From assembly GCF_006494655.1 (NCBI RefSeq), contig NZ_VHIM01000001.1:372001-436000 (forward strand): DNA of 64,000 nucleotides. The letters are read 5' to 3'. The position numbers and the translations under genes are program-made. The DNA is from Arthrobacter agilis. Its GTDB lineage: Bacteria > Actinomycetota > Actinomycetes > Actinomycetales > Micrococcaceae. This document shows positions 16,083 to 55,909 of this stretch, piece after piece (position 1 is the stretch's first letter; every line of letters starts with the position of its first letter). The notes under the pieces were generated by a model. That model did not search any database and was not told the origin of the DNA. It was given only the letters and a program-made list of their open reading frames with translations.

Positions 16083-16208
16083 CCGGGGACGGATTCCGCA
16101 GCGCGCGGCAGCCGGTGAATCCCCTGATCCGGTGCCGGGTCTGGACTGTGTGCGCCCAGGAGCGGTAAGGTGCCCCTTTGCCGTCGGGGATCCTCGTCAG
16201 GCCCTATC

Positions 16209-17834
16209 ATGAGAGCAAAACCACTCCCGGAGGTTCCGATTACAGACACTGCTGCCCAACACGACATTTATTTCGGTGCACCCGAGCCGGAGAATGAAGC
16301 CGAGATCCTCGAGTCGGCGTCTCGCGCGGCGGTAGCCCGTTTCGAAGGACGATCCGACATCACGACGGTCAAGCGTCGCTTCACCCTCGTCAACTCGGAC
16401 CGCACCCCGCACCAGGCCATGGTCGAGGATCTGCTGTTCATCCGCGCGGCGCTCGACGACGCCGGGATCGACTTCCTCCTGGTCCGCGGCAACGACCAGC
16501 GTCCGGTCATCGCGGTCGATCTCGCCGATCGCGACCGGCTGCGCACGGCGCTCGTGGAGGCCTGCCGGGACGAGCCGTTCTACTCCCGCACCGTGGACAC
16601 GAAGCGCCGCACCACCCTGCTCGTGAGCGACGGCGAGCTCTCCAAGAGCGGCAAGGCACGGATCTTCCGGCTCTTCCGGCCACGCATCGAGCCGCTCGGC
16701 GGGCTCGCGTACGGCCCCTCCGCCGGTGTGCAGATCGAGCTCTGGTCGCTCGGTGACACGGCCATCGAGCTCCCCGTGGAGAACTCCCTGACCCGCCGCA
16801 CCCTGCCCGCCGCCGAAGTGGTGCGCGGCGAGGTGGAGCGCCACGGCCACACCTGGCCCACGATCGACAACATGTTCGCCGACCACGCGACGGACATCGA
16901 CTTCGACATCGACCTCGTCTTCTCCTGGGTGGACGGCAGCAGCCCCGAGTACCAGGCAGCCCGGGCAGCACGCATGCAGGGCGTGGTGGTGGGCGAGGGC
17001 GACGACCACGAGGCCCGCTTCCGCCAGATCGACGAACTCAAGTACGCGCTGCGCTCGGTCTACATGTTCGCGCCCTGGGTCCGTCGCATCTTCATCGCCA
17101 CCGACTCGGACCGCCCGGCATGGCTCGCGGACCACCCCTCCGTCACCTTCGTCCCGTCCGAGGAACACTTCAGGGACCCATCCGTCCTTCCCACACACAA
17201 CTCGCAGGCCGTCGAGGCCCAGCTGCAGCACATCCCCGGCCTCTCCGAGTACTTCCTCTACTCGAACGACGACATGTTCTTCGGCCGGCCCGTGGCACCG
17301 GACATGTTCTTCTCCCCCGGCGGCGTCACGAAGTTCATCGAGGCTGACACGCGGATCGGCCTCGGCGACAACGACCCGGAGCGCAGCGGGTTCGAGAACG
17401 CAGCCCGCGTCAACCGTCGACTCCTGCACGAGCGCTTCGGACGCATCACGACGCGCCACCTGGAGCACACCGCCGCACCGCTGCGGAAGAGCGTCCTGCT
17501 CGAGATGGAGAACGAGTTCGCAGCGGAGTTCGCGGCCACGGCCGCATCCCGCTTCCGGGCCAAGGACAACATCTCGGTGACCAATTCCCTCTACCACTAC
17601 TACGCGCTCCTGACCGGGCGTGCCGTCACACAGGAATCGGCCCGCGTCGCGTACGTCGACACCACGCAGCGTTCCGGCCTGAAGAGCCTCAACAAGATGC
17701 TCGACAAGCGCAATCACGATTTCTTCTGCCTGAACGACGGCAGTTTCCCCGAGGTGCCGGCGGAGGAGCGCGCTCGGCTCGTCACCGACTTCCTCGAGAA
17801 GTACTTCCCGGTCAAGGCCCCCTGGGAGATCTAG
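16209..17834 (+). CDS. Stealth-family sugar-phosphate transferase
   Basis: The product of about 541 residues shows the conserved Stealth regions: DLVFSWVDGSSPEY near residue 235 (CR1), ELKYALRSVYMFAPWVRRIFIATDS (CR2), THNSQAVEAQLQHIPGLSEYFLYSNDDMFFGRPV (CR2/3), and the C-terminal VTNSLYHYYALLTGR region (CR4). Characterised members transfer hexose-1-phosphate to build capsules or similar phosphopolymers. The first 230 residues are less conserved. No capsule or wall-glycopolymer genes adjoin it. ATG 16209 has AGG seven bases before it; the frame is open to GTG 16170. A TAAGGT box at 16166 may be its promoter. Confidence 0.88.
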   Translation: MRAKPLPEVPITDTAAQHDIYFGAPEPENEAEILESASRAAVARFEGRSDITTVKRRFTLVNSDRTPHQAMVEDLLFIRAALDDAGIDFLLVRGNDQRPVIAVDLADRDRLRTALVEACRDEPFYSRTVDTKRRTTLLVSDGELSKSGKARIFRLFRPRIEPLGGLAYGPSAGVQIELWSLGDTAIELPVENSLTRRTLPAAEVVRGEVERHGHTWPTIDNMFADHATDIDFDIDLVFSWVDGSSPEYQAARAARMQGVVVGEGDDHEARFRQIDELKYALRSVYMFAPWVRRIFIATDSDRPAWLADHPSVTFVPSEEHFRDPSVLPTHNSQAVEAQLQHIPGLSEYFLYSNDDMFFGRPVAPDMFFSPGGVTKFIEADTRIGLGDNDPERSGFENAARVNRRLLHERFGRITTRHLEHTAAPLRKSVLLEMENEFAAEFAATAASRFRAKDNISVTNSLYHYYALLTGRAVTQESARVAYVDTTQRSGLKSLNKMLDKRNHDFFCLNDGSFPEVPAEERARLVTDFLEKYFPVKAPWEI

Positions 17835-19861: not shown

Positions 19862-20428
19862 ATGACCCCTCCGCCACGGGACGTCGGGCTCGACGCGCTG
19901 CCCGACGTCGTCCTCTGCGAGCGCGCGACCGACGGCGACACGGCGGCCTTCGAAGTCCTCGCCCGGCGCTACGGCCCGATGATGCGGGGTTACGCGATGC
20001 GCCTGACGGGCTCGACGGCGGATGCCGACGACGCCGTCCAGGAGACCCTGATCCACGCCTGGGACCACCTCGCCGATCTGCGGGACGGCTCCGTGGTGAA
20101 GTCCTGGCTCATGCGGATCTGCGGGCGGCGGAGCATCGACATCGTCCGGCGGCGGCGCGAGCACGCCGACGCGGACACCCTGGCCGGGGTGCCCGATCAC
20201 CGCCCCACTCCGGAGAGCGCCACCATCGCCGGCTCCGGACTCGACTCGCTCGCGCGGTCGCTCGAGGCCCTCCCCGCCGAGCAGCGCCAGTGCTGGGTGC
20301 TCAAGGAGATGGGCGGGCTGTCCTACGAGGAGATCGCGGAGCAGCTGCGCATCAGCAGTGAAAGCGTCCGGGGACGCCTCGCGCGGGCCCGCGCTACCCT
20401 GATGAAGGACATGGAGGGGTGGCGATGA
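19862..20428 (+). CDS. ECF-type RNA polymerase sigma factor
   Basis: The 188-residue protein has sigma region 2 (DTAAFEVLARRYGPMMRGYAMRLTGSTADADDAVQETLIHAWDHL), a short linker, and region 4 with the helix-turn-helix (LEALPAEQRQCWVLKEMGGLSYEEIAEQLRISSESVRGRLARAR). Regions 1 and 3 are absent, as in ECF sigmas. ATG 19862 has GGAGG nine bases upstream; the frame runs up to 19802 without conserved residues. Its stop overlaps the next gene by four bases (ATGA), tying it to a protein with an anti-sigma-type zinc motif, so release-type regulation is likely. Confidence 0.9.
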   Translation: MTPPPRDVGLDALPDVVLCERATDGDTAAFEVLARRYGPMMRGYAMRLTGSTADADDAVQETLIHAWDHLADLRDGSVVKSWLMRICGRRSIDIVRRRREHADADTLAGVPDHRPTPESATIAGSGLDSLARSLEALPAEQRQCWVLKEMGGLSYEEIAEQLRISSESVRGRLARARATLMKDMEGWR

Positions 20429-21069
20429 CCGACGAGACGAACGGCACGGACGCCCCGCGCCCGGCCCGCGCCGACTCCCCCGCCGACGACTGCGGCCATT
20501 CCCTCGAGGAACTGGGCGAGTACCTCGAGACGGGCTCGTCCCCCTACGCCGCGCACTTCGGCCAGTGCCCGCAGTGCCAGGCCGGCCTGGCGAGCCTGCG
20601 CGTCCTCGGCGACCTGACACGGAGGCTCGCCGAGGAGGACACGCAGGCTGCTGCGGCGTCCGACGGCTGGCTCCAGGACATCCTGTCCAACCTGCGGCTG
20701 GAGACACGCGCGGGCAGATCGATCCCGGTGGCGTCAGAGAACCCCGACGACGGCCTGTCGGAGACCGAAGGCGCCGTCGTCGCCCTCATCCGCAGCGCAG
20801 GTGACGCGATCGACGGCGTGACCATCGGCAAGTGCCGCCTGCACGGCGACATCACCCGACCGGGCGCGCCGACCCGCGTGGAGCTGAGCGTCACGGCCCT
20901 GCACGGGTATCGCCTGCCGGCGCTCGTCGACGCCCTCCGGACCAGTGTCGGCGAGGTGTTCGGCCTGCACACGGAGCTGCACCTCGACGGTGTGGACATC
21001 ACCGTGGCCGACATCGTCCAGGACGGGCAGGGGACCGCCCCGGGGCCAGGCCTGGAGGAGCACCCGTGA
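20425..21069 (+). CDS. ZAS zinc-finger / Asp23-Gls24-like protein, putative anti-sigma factor
   Basis: The 214-residue protein combines two parts. Residues 23-51 hold C23-G-H25 ... H44-x3-C48-x2-C51, the H-x3-C-x2-C pattern of zinc-binding anti-sigma domains. Residues about 110-205 (LSETEGAVVALIRSAGDAIDGVTIGKCRLHG, then VELSVTALHGYRLPALVDALRTSVGEVFGLHTELHLDGVDITVADIV) fit Asp23/Gls24 domains of envelope-stress proteins. No transmembrane segment is seen. Overlap with the sigma gene suggests they act as a pair. That it inhibits the sigma factor is inference from motif and position. GTG 20419 is an alternative start. Confidence 0.78.
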   Translation: MTDETNGTDAPRPARADSPADDCGHSLEELGEYLETGSSPYAAHFGQCPQCQAGLASLRVLGDLTRRLAEEDTQAAAASDGWLQDILSNLRLETRAGRSIPVASENPDDGLSETEGAVVALIRSAGDAIDGVTIGKCRLHGDITRPGAPTRVELSVTALHGYRLPALVDALRTSVGEVFGLHTELHLDGVDITVADIVQDGQGTAPGPGLEEHP

Positions 21070-21434
21070 GCCCGGACACCGTCGGCCTCGCACGGGAGAT
21101 CGAGGCCGCCGTTGCGGCAGTGGAGGGCGTGGTGGGCCTGTACCCACCGCACTCCGCTCTCCGCTCGGTCCTCAGCGCCGGCCGCTCCCGCATCCTGGCG
21201 ACCGACGGCGAAGGGCTGGCGGGCCTGCGGGAGGAGGCCGGTGTCCTCGTGGTGCATGTGCGCTTCGCGGGCACCTCGGACCATCCCGGCCCGTCCCTGG
21301 TGCGTCGCGTCGCGCACACGGTGAGGACCACCCTAGGCGAGCGGGCTGCCGGCGCCGAGGTCCGGGTGCAGCTCTGCGCGATCGTGGCGCCCGCCGATCT
21401 GCCCCGCGTCATGGATGCCGCGGACCAGGACTAG
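21066..21434 (+). CDS. Small Asp23-like partner protein
   Basis: The 122-residue product starts at GTG 21066, overlapping the previous stop (GTGA), with GGAGGAG five bases before it. It has an alpha/beta pattern (IEAAVAAVEGVVGLYPP, then GVLVVHVRFAGTS, then LVRRVAHTVRTTLGERAAGAEVRVQLCAIV) like the amphipathic helix and strand order of Asp23-type domains. No signal or membrane segment is seen. It is the third cistron of the sigma unit. Exact role is unknown. Confidence 0.65.
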   Translation: MSPDTVGLAREIEAAVAAVEGVVGLYPPHSALRSVLSAGRSRILATDGEGLAGLREEAGVLVVHVRFAGTSDHPGPSLVRRVAHTVRTTLGERAAGAEVRVQLCAIVAPADLPRVMDAADQD

Positions 21435-21935: not shown

Positions 21936-22703
21936 ATGTGCGGACGGTTCGTGATCGCCGGCAACAGGGCCGACCTGATCGACGCCTTCGAAGTGGACGA
22001 GTCGGTCGGCGACGAGGTCCGGCCGTCCTGGAACGTGGCGCCGACCGACACCGTGCAGCTCGTCGTCGAACGGCTGGACCCGGACACCGGGGAACTGACC
22101 CGACGGCTCGAACCGGCACGCTGGGGCCTCATCCCCTCCTGGGCCACGTCCGCCTCCGTGGGCTCGCGCATGATCAACGCACGCAGCGAGACCCTGCTGG
22201 AGAAGCCGTCCTTCCGGTCGGCGGCCCTCAAGCGCCGCGGGCTCGTCCCCGCGGACGGCTACTACGAATGGCGGAAGAACGACGACGGCTCGAAGACCCC
22301 GATCTACCTGCACGGGCAGGACGCCGCCCACCTCGGTTTCGCCGCGATCTACGAGTTCTGGCGGGACCCGGCCACGGCCACCGAGGAACAGCCCAGGGGC
22401 AGCTGGGTGGTCAGCTGCAGCATCATCACCCGTCCCGCGAGCGACACCCTGGGCGAGATCCACGACCGCACGCCCGTGATCGTGCCGCCCGGGCTGCGGA
22501 GCGACTGGCTGGATCCCCGGAACGCATCCCGTCCGGTGGTCCAGGAACTGCTCGACGCGATCCCCGACCCGCAGCTGGTTCCACGCCTCGTCGGCCCGCG
22601 GGTGGGCTCCGTCCGCAACGACGGTCCGGAGCTCATCGAGCCCCTGCCGGATGCCGGGGCGGATGTCCCGTCCGCGCCCGACGGGCAGCAGACCCTCCTG
22701 TAG
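21936..22703 (+). CDS. SOS response-associated peptidase / abasic-site shield (YedK/HMCES)
   Basis: The 255-residue protein begins MCGRFVI, with the catalytic Cys2 that forms a thiazolidine link to abasic sites in single-stranded DNA. Other conserved elements are SWNVAPTD, ARWGLIPSWA, MINARSETL (Asn and Glu), VPADGYYEW (Glu) and EIHDRTPVI (His). All catalytic residues are present. The C-terminal 50 residues (VGPRVGSVRNDGPELIEPL) fit actinobacterial members. GGAG precedes the ATG. No SOS box was identified by eye. Confidence 0.94.
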   Translation: MCGRFVIAGNRADLIDAFEVDESVGDEVRPSWNVAPTDTVQLVVERLDPDTGELTRRLEPARWGLIPSWATSASVGSRMINARSETLLEKPSFRSAALKRRGLVPADGYYEWRKNDDGSKTPIYLHGQDAAHLGFAAIYEFWRDPATATEEQPRGSWVVSCSIITRPASDTLGEIHDRTPVIVPPGLRSDWLDPRNASRPVVQELLDAIPDPQLVPRLVGPRVGSVRNDGPELIEPLPDAGADVPSAPDGQQTLL

Positions 22704-50060: not shown

Positions 50061-50777
50061 GTGACCGAGCAGGAAGTACTGACAGAGGTCAATGATCAGC
50101 TCTTCGCACTGCTGACCGGGGCCGAAGGTTTCCAGGAGTTCCTGGACGAGCTCGCCGTCATGGCCGCACGCAGATTGTCCGTCACCAGCGAGGTCTCGTG
50201 CGCCGTCACGCTGGTCCGTCTGAAGAAGGCCGGGACGCTCGCGACCAGCGACGAGCTCGCGCGGACGGCCGACGAGTTCCAGAACCGTTCCCACGAGGGC
50301 CCGTGCCTGGAAGCTGCGGAAAGGAGACTGTCCGTCTACTGCGCCGACACCATGACGGACCCGCGCTGGCCCACCTATCTCCGCAAGGTGCGGGCCACTC
50401 CCATCCGGTCCATTCTCGGTGTGTCCTTCGCCCTCGGGGACAGCGGTCGCGCCGCGCTCAATCTCTACTCGACAGTGCCCTCCTCCTTCGATCCCGGAGC
50501 CATCGCCGCGGCCGAAGCGCTCGCCGAGGCGGCGTCGTCCTCTCTGACCTTTGCTGCGCGGGCGGCGGCCGCGGATGACGAGCGACACGACCTCGAGGCA
50601 GCCCTGGAGTCACGCCAGACCATCAATACGGCGATCGGCATCATCATGTTCCAGAACTCCTGCTCCCATGCGGAGGCACTGACCATCCTGCAGCGGGCAT
50701 CGAACAGCCGGAACCTCAAACTGCGGGTGGTGGCCGAACGGGTGATCACCTCCATCGCCGACGCCGAGAAGCACTGA
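50061..50777 (+). CDS. GAF and ANTAR domain protein 1
   Basis: The 238-residue protein has an N-terminal GAF domain (SCAVTLVRLKKAGTLATSDELARTADEFQ, HEGPCLEAA, DPRWPTYLRKVRA, LGVSFALGDSGRAALNLYS) and an ANTAR domain at its end (ALESRQTINTAIGIIMFQNSCSHAEALTILQRAS). ANTAR domains bind RNA stem-loops and act as antiterminators; the GAF domain is the likely ligand switch. GTG 50061 has GAGGG seven bases before it. It is convergent with GAF/ANTAR 2, which ends 12 bases later. Confidence 0.88.
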   Translation: MTEQEVLTEVNDQLFALLTGAEGFQEFLDELAVMAARRLSVTSEVSCAVTLVRLKKAGTLATSDELARTADEFQNRSHEGPCLEAAERRLSVYCADTMTDPRWPTYLRKVRATPIRSILGVSFALGDSGRAALNLYSTVPSSFDPGAIAAAEALAEAASSSLTFAARAAAADDERHDLEAALESRQTINTAIGIIMFQNSCSHAEALTILQRASNSRNLKLRVVAERVITSIADAEKH

Positions 50778-50789
50778 CCCCGGCCCGCG

Positions 50790-51530
50790 CTAGTCGAAAT
50801 GCGTGCTGACCGGCGCGTCGACCGTGCTCCTGAGCACGTTCCCCGCGAGATCGCGGAGCTTGAGGTTGCGTGCACTCGACGCCGCCCGCAGGATCTCGAT
50901 CGCGTCATCCTGACTGCAGCGGTTCTGCGCCATGACGACTCCGGCGGCGAGATCGATGGTGGTCCGTGACTCCATGGCTGCCGTCAGGTTCTCGACCTTC
51001 TCCGTCAGCCGTGCCACGCGAAGCGCGAGTTTCAGCGGTGTGGACACGGCGCGTGCGAACTCCTCGGACGCAAGGACGGCGTCCTTCCCGAAGGCACCGG
51101 AGTTCCGCGAGAAGTAGGTGACCGTGGCCCGCTCGAGCCCGCCCGTGTCGACGGGAACACTGAGCACCGAACGGATTCCACTGCCTGCCAGCACCGATCG
51201 GCACAGAGGGAAGCCGGGATCCATCTCGAGGTCGTCCACCACCACCGTCTTGCGAGACTGCGCCGCCCGGACACCGGGACCGTCGTCGAACCGTTGTTGG
51301 AGGTCTGCGAGCCGCCGGGCCGTGCGACTGGACCCGGCCACCGCGGGGTGCCTGCGTGGCCTGAGGAGCGTGACGCTCGCGAGGGTCCTGCACGCCTCCA
51401 TGCGGGTTATCGAGGACGCGAGTGCCGCAAGACCCTCGAGGAAGGCGCCCAGACCGGTACCCACAACCGCCAGGTCCACCAGGATGTCCCTGATATCGCA
51501 CGGGGTGTCGAGGACGAGCCGATCGGTCAT
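50790..51530 (-). CDS. GAF and ANTAR domain protein 2
   Basis: The 246-residue protein has GAF features (SVTLLRPRRHPAVAGSS, DDGPGVRAAQSRKTVVVDDLEMDPGFP, RSVLSVPVDTGGLERATVTYFS) and a C-terminal ANTAR domain (AMESRTTIDLAAGVVMAQNRCSQDDAIEILRAASSARNLKLR). It is clearly a paralogue of protein 1, sharing the SxRNLKLR end. ATG 51530 is chosen; the frame to 51620 has no conserved residues. It is divergent from GAF/ANTAR 3. Confidence 0.87.
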   Translation of the reverse strand: MTDRLVLDTPCDIRDILVDLAVVGTGLGAFLEGLAALASSITRMEACRTLASVTLLRPRRHPAVAGSSRTARRLADLQQRFDDGPGVRAAQSRKTVVVDDLEMDPGFPLCRSVLAGSGIRSVLSVPVDTGGLERATVTYFSRNSGAFGKDAVLASEEFARAVSTPLKLALRVARLTEKVENLTAAMESRTTIDLAAGVVMAQNRCSQDDAIEILRAASSARNLKLRDLAGNVLRSTVDAPVSTHFD

Positions 51531-51797
51531 TGCGCACCACCCCCGGAACGTGCTCCGACGGGGAGCACGACGAACACCAAAGCTGCTTGCTGCTGAACAA
51601 CTTCCTCCCATGCTAGTCACGGGTCGGCCGGAGGACCAGACGTCACGGAAGCGGGCAACTTCGGCGTAACACTCCGCAACGGCCTCACCGGCGGCCTCCC
51701 CCCGGCGCAGCGATTTGCCACCACTCCAGGAGTTGACTATCTTGAACCGGGTCTAGAAGTGGGCGCCGATGACAGCCGGTATGACCGGCGCCAGGAC

Positions 51798-52532
51798 ATG
51801 TCGAGGCCTCCCGTGGACTCTGAGCCCAATCTCAACGAACTCGCCGTAGTTTTCGGCCGCGTACGCGGCCTTCTCCTCACCGAAGAAACGGTGCAGCACG
51901 CCGTCGATCTGCTCGCCGAAGCTGCCCGGGACCTCATCCCCGGCGCCACCGGGGCCGGTGTCTCACTCATCCACCACGGCAGAAGGACGAGTACCGGGGC
52001 CACCGACACCCTGGTTCGTCGTGCCGATGAACTCCAGTACGAGCTGTCCGAGGGCCCCTGCCTCAGCGCGTGGTCCACCTCGGCTCCTGTCAGGACCGAC
52101 GACACGGAGGCGGTGGATCAGCGCTGGCCGCGATGGGCAGCCGCAGCCGCGTCGATGTCCGTACGCTCCTGCCAGAGCGTGCCCCTCATCCAGGGGCGTA
52201 CCACCATCGGAGCCATGAAGGTCTACTCGACCAGGGCGTACGCCTTCGACGAAGCCACCGAACGGGCACTCCTGCGGTTCGCCGTGCCCGCCGCGGCACT
52301 GTTGAGCCATGTCCAGACCACCGAGACACCGCAGCAGATCAGAACCGAACTGACGGCCGCCCTGCAGGTGCGCGACCGCATCGGGATGGCCAAGGGCATC
52401 CTGATGGCGCAACTCGGGATCGACGATCGCAGTGCGTTCCGTGAGCTGGTCGCACGCGCGGAGGACGGCGGACGGTCGATCGCGGACATCGCACGCGAGC
52501 TGACCGAGGGACCCGGACCGGTGGAGGCCTGA
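51798..52532 (+). CDS. GAF and ANTAR domain protein 3
   Basis: The 244-residue protein has a GAF domain (TGAGVSLIHHGRRTSTGATDTLVRRADELQYELSEGPC, VDQRWPRWAAAAASMSVRSCQSVPLIQGRTTIGAMKVYST) and an ANTAR domain (ALQVRDRIGMAKGILMAQLGIDDRSAFRELVARA). GEGPC-like SEGPC and VRSC(Q)SVPL are usual for this group. Start ATG 51798 is weakly supported; GTG 51759 is possible. A TTGACT at 51733 may be part of its promoter. Confidence 0.87.
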   Translation: MSRPPVDSEPNLNELAVVFGRVRGLLLTEETVQHAVDLLAEAARDLIPGATGAGVSLIHHGRRTSTGATDTLVRRADELQYELSEGPCLSAWSTSAPVRTDDTEAVDQRWPRWAAAAASMSVRSCQSVPLIQGRTTIGAMKVYSTRAYAFDEATERALLRFAVPAAALLSHVQTTETPQQIRTELTAALQVRDRIGMAKGILMAQLGIDDRSAFRELVARAEDGGRSIADIARELTEGPGPVEA

Positions 52533-52552
52533 GCCGCTCCCCCGCGCCCGTC

Positions 52553-53362
52553 TCAGTTCCGCTCCGCGCTCCGGTGGCGTGTCTCCTCCGTATGCCGTGA
52601 GCGGGAGATCTCCTGCTGCGCTCGGCGGGCGAAGCGGCGGAACGTGAGCCGCTCGGCTGCAGGGAAGGCGTGCGGGCGCTGGTCGAGGATGCAGAATGCG
52701 CCGATGTTCCACCCACCGGGCCCCCTCAGGGGGTGTGCGGCGTAGAAGCGTAGGTACGGCTCCTGCACCACGAGCGGATGGTTCGCGAACCGGGGGTCCC
52801 GGCGCGTGTCGGTGATGACGAACGTCGCGGCCGTCCTGATCGCTTCGTCACAGAATGCCTCGCGTCGCGGCGCATGACGGGGCAAGGGACCCCTGGCGGC
52901 CTTGAGATACTGGCTGTCCGCGTCGATGAGGGAGACGGTCGCCGAACTGACGTCGAAGGCTGCTCGTGCCTCGCTCACGAGCTCGTCGAGGACGGTCGCC
53001 GGGCCCGAGTGCATCAGGCCCGTCGAGGACAGCGACCTGAGCCGCTCGTCCTCTGCTTCCGTATCCGTGAGCAGCCAGGCCGCGGCCGCGCTGATCCGGG
53101 GCCCTTCGAGTGCCTGCGCCGCCGGGGTCGTGGCGTACGGCACCATGCTCTCGTGCCGCCTGTCCCACAGCATCTCGTTGATCGCGTGAGCGAGGATATC
53201 CCGCTCGAGTTCCGTCAGCGATTCGGCGCCCTGCAGGAACAGCGCGAGGTGAGCCTCGGAGGCGCGCCCGCCATTGCCGCAATAGTGCAGCCAGACCTGA
53301 CCAGGGGTCAGGCCGCACCGGCTCATCGCCTCGAGCATCAGCCGTCGCTGGGCCTGCTTCAC
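52553..53362 (-). CDS. GAF protein with an N-terminal module shared with the 22.7-kb protein
   Basis: The 269-residue protein starts at GTG 53362, with GAGGAG five bases before it. Residues about 15-75 match the small protein at 22728-23078 (W-L-x-Y, G-G, RDIL-A-x-NE). Residues about 105-250 form a GAF domain with AFCDEAI, DTRRDPRFANHPLVVQEPYLRFYAAHPLRGPGGWNIGAFCILD (parts), typical of one-domain GAF proteins. It lacks ANTAR, kinase or GGDEF parts. Ligand unknown. Confidence 0.82.
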   Translation of the reverse strand: MKQAQRRLMLEAMSRCGLTPGQVWLHYCGNGGRASEAHLALFLQGAESLTELERDILAHAINEMLWDRRHESMVPYATTPAAQALEGPRISAAAAWLLTDTEAEDERLRSLSSTGLMHSGPATVLDELVSEARAAFDVSSATVSLIDADSQYLKAARGPLPRHAPRREAFCDEAIRTAATFVITDTRRDPRFANHPLVVQEPYLRFYAAHPLRGPGGWNIGAFCILDQRPHAFPAAERLTFRRFARRAQQEISRSRHTEETRHRSAERN

Positions 53363-55294: not shown

Positions 55295-55909
55295 TTACGC
55301 TCCTGTGTTGACCTCGATCTCGGCGAGGGCGGCCAGCCTGCGGAGGTGCCCTCGTTCCTCGGCGCTGAGGTCGCGGGGACTGGTGCCGACGAGGCACAGG
55401 CTGCCGACGAACCAGCCGCTGGGCCCGCGGAGCGGCACGCCTGCATAGAAGCGGACAAAGGGGTCCTGCACCACGAAGGGATGGGATCTGAAGCGCGCAT
55501 CCGTTCGCATGTCCGGCACCACCAGGGTCTCCTCCTGCCCGATGGTGGTGTTGCAGAAGGCCAGCTCGCGGGGGATGTTGCGGGGCAGGTCACCCACGAA
55601 GGACTTGAGGAACTGACGGTCCTCGGAGATGAAGGAGATGATCGCCGTGTGAACACCGAAGCGGGTCTGCGCCTCCCGGGTGAGGTGATTGAACCGCTCC
55701 TCCTCCGGCGAATCGAGGAGGCCGGTACGGAGCAGGGAGCGGAGGCGTTGGCGCTCCGACTCGCGGCTGGGCGGGACGACCGTCGGCGAGACCGGCGTAG
55801 TGGACGCCCCTAGGGGCGAGGGAGAAGGCAAAGCGTGGTTCCGCTCGATGGGTGAGACCAGTTCCCGTTCGTAGCGACGGATACCTCTATCTTGCCTGCT
55901 CCACCTCAA
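55295..55909 (-). CDS. GAF-domain protein, single domain
   Basis: The protein of up to 204 residues has one GAF domain at about residues 55-195: RFGVHTAIISFISEDRQFLKSFVG, LAFCNTTI, VVPDMRTDARFRSHPFVVQDPFVRFYAGVPLRGPSGWFVGSLCLVGT. It resembles the GAF half of the protein at 52553-53362 but lacks the N-terminal module. The first 50 residues are low complexity. The TTG start at 55909 is weak; a start nearer residue 28 is possible. Confidence 0.75.
   Translation of the reverse strand: MRWSRQDRGIRRYERELVSPIERNHALPSPSPLGASTTPVSPTVVPPSRESERQRLRSLLRTGLLDSPEEERFNHLTREAQTRFGVHTAIISFISEDRQFLKSFVGDLPRNIPRELAFCNTTIGQEETLVVPDMRTDARFRSHPFVVQDPFVRFYAGVPLRGPSGWFVGSLCLVGTSPRDLSAEERGHLRRLAALAEIEVNTGA

Follow-up and report, generated by a model that had tools for sequence, protein, structure and literature searches.

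Proteins of the Asp23 family occur widely in the envelope of Gram-positive bacteria and are conserved there, and their molecular function is still unclear (PMC6954212). In S. aureus, Asp23 forms filaments and AmaP keeps it at the membrane, and the loss of either Asp23 or AmaP induces the cell-wall stress response (PMC6954212). asp23 is also a target of the sigma factor SigB in S. aureus (PMC11350273), so that the view of a first-pass annotation of the DNA studied here, which saw no known sigma link of this family in Firmicutes, does not hold on the target side. The Asp23-AmaP operon of S. aureus has the Asp23 family itself, AmaP-like neighbours, and sigma control of asp23 in common with the system proposed below. 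The controlling sigma factor there is, however, SigB, and no anti-sigma factor with an Asp23 domain is described in that species.

A 2022 review reports that the ECF sigma factors of groups ECF286 and ECF292 are encoded beside soluble Asp23-family proteins, which are predicted anti-sigma factors, and it gives no experiments on them (PMC8999054). Both groups come from the Casas-Pastor 2021 classification, which that review cites (PMC8999054). By this description they resemble the gene pair reported here, an ECF sigma factor beside a soluble Asp23-family predicted anti-sigma factor (PMC8999054). The pairing is already catalogued, and the idea is not wholly new, contrary to what the first-pass annotation had implied. 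The review entry is, however, one sentence long and includes no zinc domain, third gene, Asp23-AmaP linkage, or promoter (PMC8999054). A literature search found no paper on the zinc-Asp23 architecture, the third gene, the linkage to the AmaP operon, or the promoter, some of which the 2021 primary classification may cover; the search likewise found no experiment, in agreement with the first-pass annotation.

Two soluble zinc anti-sigma factors are also similar. ChrR of Rhodobacter sphaeroides belongs to an ECF/anti-sigma pair and, like the fusion protein described below, has a soluble zinc anti-sigma domain and, C-terminal to it, a distinct sensor-like domain. While the sensor of ChrR is a cupin and its zinc site is of HHCC type, the fusion has an Asp23-like domain and a CHCC site. 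RsrA, the partner of SigR in Streptomyces coelicolor, has a CHCC-type zinc site, is soluble, and is encoded downstream of the ECF gene, as is the fusion, and RsrA-like proteins of relatives show profile similarity to the N-terminus of the fusion. RsrA is, however, a single-domain protein of about 100 residues, whereas the fusion has 214 residues with a second, Asp23-like domain. The distance from the first Cys to the His is 26 in RsrA (C11 to H37), 21 in the fusion of the window, and 18 in its divergent group of relatives.

The best explanation of the locus, which we consider fairly likely as a whole, is that a zinc anti-sigma factor (ZAS) carrying an Asp23 domain restrains an ECF sigma factor, and that this sigma factor transcribes the Asp23-AmaP operon.

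Gene organization and the ECF sigma factor

The window, i.e., the whole stretch of 64,000 nucleotides that was analysed (G000:C11:372001-436000), is part of the 3.24-Mb genome of a soil bacterium. The closest named relatives of this genome are Arthrobacter sp. Leaf234 and A. bussei, and a contig scan for close relatives found two very near ones. The three genes of the module, and all the features described within them, are on the + strand. The first gene (19862..20428) encodes a protein of 188 aa with matches in Pfam to Sigma70_r2 (PF04542, E 5e-16, residues 33-99) and Sigma70_r4_2 (PF08281, E 2.4e-14, residues 128-180), which also matches the sigma superfamily TIGR02937. With sigma2 and sigma4 only, and without a larger sigma3 or N-terminal part, it is unambiguously an ECF (group IV) sigma factor. 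The second gene (20425..21069, 214 aa) encodes the ZAS-Asp23 fusion, a predicted soluble anti-sigma factor, and overlaps the sigma gene by 4 nt (ATGA). The third gene (21066..21434, 122 aa), which encodes a divergent Asp23-like protein, overlaps the fusion gene by another 4 nt (GTGA). Both overlaps lie exactly where the first-pass annotation had placed them.

Homologues of the fusion were found by homologue search in 34/120 genomes of the family. The 57 loci compared in this study were collected by homology to the fusion alone, and many of them are near relatives. The homologues form two groups, a colinear type with 39-53% identity and a divergent type with 24-33% identity. In 57/57 loci the fusion gene has an overlap with a sigma gene (4 nt in 37 and 10 nt in 20), so that the pairing is not due to chance. 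Similar gene sets, which had been suspected in other actinobacteria, are indeed widespread, with the sigma/fusion pair in all of the loci. The divergences of the sigma factor and the fusion are the best correlated among the sigma pairs (r 0.917), a Mantel value that ignores kinship and carries little weight.

Domains of the fusion protein

The N-terminal part of the fusion (20485..20709, residues 21-95) is a predicted anti-sigma (ZAS) domain. With hhalign it matches ZAS/zf-HC2 anti-sigma factors at a probability of 95.4% (E 1.6e-8), and five unrelated control profiles gave at most 0.5% against the same N-terminus. The best two of 177,635 PDB sequences are the anti-sigma factors DdvA and RslA, both as weak matches (E 0.07 and 0.3). 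The AF2 model has helices at residues 27-36, 42-47, 49-78, and 81-94, mostly with high pLDDT, which are followed by an alpha/beta domain. The model and the hhalign match together give a four-helix anti-sigma domain. As expected for a ZAS gene, the fusion gene is directly downstream of the ECF gene in 57/57 loci.

Residue conservation indicates a probable zinc site, C23 ... H44-x3-C48-x2-C51 (20491..20577). Among the 57 homologues C23 is conserved in 51, H44 in 50, C48 in 54, and C51 in 56, and the full C-n-H-x3-C-x2-C pattern is intact in 47. The H-x3-C-x2-C motif of soluble anti-sigma type, which the first-pass annotation had noted, is present as H44-C48-C51. The five zinc ligands that it proposed fare differently: C23, H44, C48, and C51 are likely, while H25 is probably not a ligand and is rejected, because this position has His in 13/57 proteins and Arg in 40/57. 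It is reported that the fourth ligand of ZAS proteins is a Cys or His located 23-26 residues upstream of H-x3-C-x2-C (PMC4960319). In the fusion of the window C23 precedes H44 by 21 residues, and in most relatives the spacing is 18, both distances being below this range.

The C-terminal part (20737..21018, residues 105-198) is an Asp23-like domain by hhalign and by two arginines, R123 and R172, which are invariant in 57/57 homologues. The hhalign match of this half to canonical Asp23 has a probability of 97.6% (E 4e-12, 93 columns). Against PF03780 the window's protein scores 13.5 bits (E 0.098). This is below the Pfam gathering cut-off of 28, and the fusion is therefore termed 'Asp23-like' and not a formal Pfam member; an NCBIfam scan also gave no match for it. 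When the relatives were scanned singly, PF03780 matched 27/30 of them at E < 0.1 (best 4.7e-9), and the profile of the fusion family retrieves canonical Asp23 proteins across the phylum. The Asp23 domain read from the second gene at first pass is therefore weak on the window's sequence alone but is upheld by the profiles and the relatives. By these comparisons the protein is a ZAS-type domain joined to an Asp23-like domain, and we infer that it acts as an anti-sigma factor.

A CHCC-type zinc site such as that of the fusion is tied to disulfide sensing (PMC4960319), and C137 is conserved as well in 49/57 homologues. Both observations would suit an RsrA-like redox switch, in which oxidation of C23, C48, and C51 expels the zinc and frees the sigma factor, while the Asp23 domain merely positions the protein at the envelope. 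We consider this improbable, since the CHCC site is partly lost in 10/57 proteins (H44 is changed to Tyr in four) and seven loci with a damaged site (L045, L046, L048, L049, L105, L106, and L137) retain a linked asp23 operon. In the fusions of L105 and L106, C23, H44, and C48 are all lost, and these loci still have the linked operon with its promoter motif. The likely target operon also encodes an envelope scaffold and not a thiol regulon. Ten damaged zinc sites are thus set against two invariant arginines, and therefore zinc probably has a structural or modulatory role in some members of the family. The comparison suggests that the Asp23 part is what stays constant in the fusion family. L105 and L106 come from the same order as the window's species but from another family.

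The third protein

The third gene is present in 55/57 loci. Its product has no match in Pfam, and hhalign compares it to Asp23 at a probability of 66.9% (E 5e-5); PF03780 matches 8/29 members of this protein family. Its AF2 model has a pLDDT of 80. The overlap with the fusion gene and this likeness agree with its description as Asp23-like at first pass, with values lower than those of the fusion. A Foldseek search of PDB with the AF2 models of both proteins gave nothing below E 1e-3; the similarities were generic alpha/beta ones (cation-transporter CTD-like) and are not used as evidence.

The third protein is weakly similar to the Asp23 half of the fusion itself and co-diverges with the fusion (Mantel r 0.87, which ignores kinship and carries little weight). 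Together with the coupling of the third gene in 55/57 loci, this could mean that the third protein is an anti-anti-sigma factor competing for the Asp23 domain of the fusion, so that the scaffold would be an output and not an input of the circuit. The sequence of the protein is, however, weak and fast-diverging, and its gene is absent from two loci, and such a role seems quite unlikely to us. In the favoured explanation the third protein would be a translationally coupled, Asp23-like partner of the anti-sigma factor.

Linkage to the Asp23-AmaP operon and a shared promoter motif

A canonical asp23 gene is found within about 6 kb of the sigma/fusion pair in 50/57 loci. It is located upstream on the same strand in 17 of these, divergently in 26, downstream in 5, and otherwise in 2. 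Since the fusion was the only query by which the loci were collected, this linkage is not a selection effect, although many of the loci come from near relatives. The linked asp23 is mostly accompanied by DUF2273-like, Asp23s, DUF6286-like, and AmaP-like genes and sometimes by CsbD. The labels DUF2273, DUF6286, AmaP, and CsbD are our assumptions from size, order, and general knowledge, with Pfam checks of the Asp23 members only. In two loci, L114 and L115, amaP and the sigma gene share at least 4 nt (4 nt at L114).

An ECF-type site, CGTGA(C/G)GATT-N12/13-CGTCTT, precedes asp23. In aligned form it reads [G/C]CGTGA[C/G]GATT-N12/13-CGTCTTTAC and is ECF-like, with CGTC at -10. When all 4+4 dyads were counted, the dyad GTGA-N17-CGTC was found in 24/53 asp23 upstream regions, where 0.4 is expected from shuffles. 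A scoring matrix was built from 28 linked boxes, so that its scores for the linked set are partly circular. Scores of at least 9 were obtained for 44/50 module-linked asp23 genes and for 0/19 asp23 genes that are unlinked or come from module-less genomes (best score -3.4). This circularity is weaker in the dyad count and in the genome-wide pattern, for which the regulon scan consisted of pattern searches over genomes. The strict pattern occurs at 13 sites in 38 genomes of the genus, 11 of them before asp23 or an asp23 remnant, and the reversed-pattern control at 3 sites. The linkage and the shared motif make the Asp23-AmaP operon the probable target of the sigma factor.

The spacer of the motif is 13 nt in 15/16 colinear loci and 12 nt in 23/23 divergent loci, a difference between the subgroups that bears on promoter specificity. 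In L107 and L108, which belong to two genomes from a different family of the class, it is the sigma gene that the site precedes. A further separation of module and operon, besides that in the species of the window, is seen in genome G514 (L118 and L119): the sigma module and an asp23 gene whose motif is perfect are about 44 kb apart, and the module itself adjoins an asp23 remnant that also retains the motif.

The module in the species of the window

In the species of the window, as in G517 and G529, the module is isolated, with a phosphoesterase gene on one side and a DoxX-like gene on the other. Three further modules (L044, L050, and L051) are unlinked to asp23 as well and count against the reading of the operon as a target. 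The genome of the window has one sigma/fusion module and two Asp23 operons, one at G000:C11:496.5-499.2 kb (L037), about 106 kb from the module, and one at G000:C44:88-90 kb (L038). Both operons are complete (Asp23-DUF2273-Asp23s-DUF6286-AmaP) and of different type, and only the first has the motif.

The site upstream of asp23 at C11:499 kb is GCGTGCGGATC-N13-CGACTTACC. This pattern has only 3 sites in 3.24 Mb, this one included, and both boxes are conserved in G517 and G529, where the spacer has diverged. The operon itself is of divergent type by protein similarity. The 13-nt spacer and the CGACTT box of the site are typical of the colinear group, which includes the sigma factor of the window. 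Counting against the site is its degenerate -35 box, which has CGTGCGG for CGTGACG. Most likely, the sigma factor of the window acts in trans on the operon at C11:496.5-499.2 kb. The second Asp23 operon, at C44, has no motif and is rejected as a target. No promoter motif was found upstream of the sigma gene of the window or those of L005 and L006, and autoregulation of the window's own sigma gene is rejected for this reason.

Proposed mechanism

In the proposed circuit, a soluble class I zinc anti-sigma factor (ZAS) would keep the ECF sigma factor inactive, and its C-terminal Asp23-like domain would serve as a sensor or as a tether to the Asp23-AmaP layer. Once freed, the sigma factor would use a CGTGAcGATT-N12/13-CGTCTT promoter, a motif whose recognition by this sigma factor we infer from its distribution, to transcribe Asp23-DUF2273-Asp23s-DUF6286-AmaP (often with CsbD). 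Positive autoregulation would also result at loci whose sigma gene is part of this operon. In the species of the window the module would have become separated from the operon and would work in trans on the one at C11:496.5-499.2 kb.

The circuit would most likely respond to the state of the Asp23/AmaP membrane layer, which would be read by homotypic contacts between Asp23 domains; that such contacts are the signal is a tentative suggestion, somewhat on the doubtful side. Asp23-type assembly at the envelope may draw the zinc domain off the sigma factor, as the first-pass annotation proposed, or may have the opposite effect. The circuit would then be a homeostatic loop acting on its own scaffold. 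Such a loop is plausible because loss of Asp23 or AmaP in S. aureus induces the cell-wall stress response (PMC6954212), and its feedback may be of either sign. A more elaborate version, which we regard as rather unlikely in all its parts, is that the anti-sigma factor senses the envelope by co-assembly into the Asp23/AmaP layer, that the sigma factor reports on this layer and rebuilds it, and that the loop of the window lost its own linkage and was rewired in trans onto an Asp23 operon of the second type with the right spacer length.

The anti-sigma likeness of the N-terminus is seen with profiles only and the PDB matches are weak, but it is very unlikely that the fusion is an accessory Asp23-like protein in the operon of a transcriptionally controlled sigma factor, given the profile match with controls near zero, the four-helix layout of the AF2 model, and the strict position downstream of the ECF gene in every locus.

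If the Asp23-domain anti-sigma factor does restrain the sigma factor, this sigma/anti-sigma circuit would be a regulatory handle on the Asp23-AmaP operon, and loss of the anti-sigma gene should turn the Asp23 regulon on. It would also bring one more sensor domain to the few soluble anti-sigma factors that are understood from experiments.

Other genes in the window

Directly downstream of the module and the DoxX-like gene is an SRAP (SOS response-associated peptidase) gene (21936-22703), which is also kept in Leaf234 and A. bussei. A Stealth-family (CR1-CR4) capsule-type phosphotransferase is encoded at 16170-17834. Four GAF-domain genes, three of them with ANTAR RNA-binding domains, are clustered on both strands at 50061-53362, and another GAF gene is found at 55295-55831.
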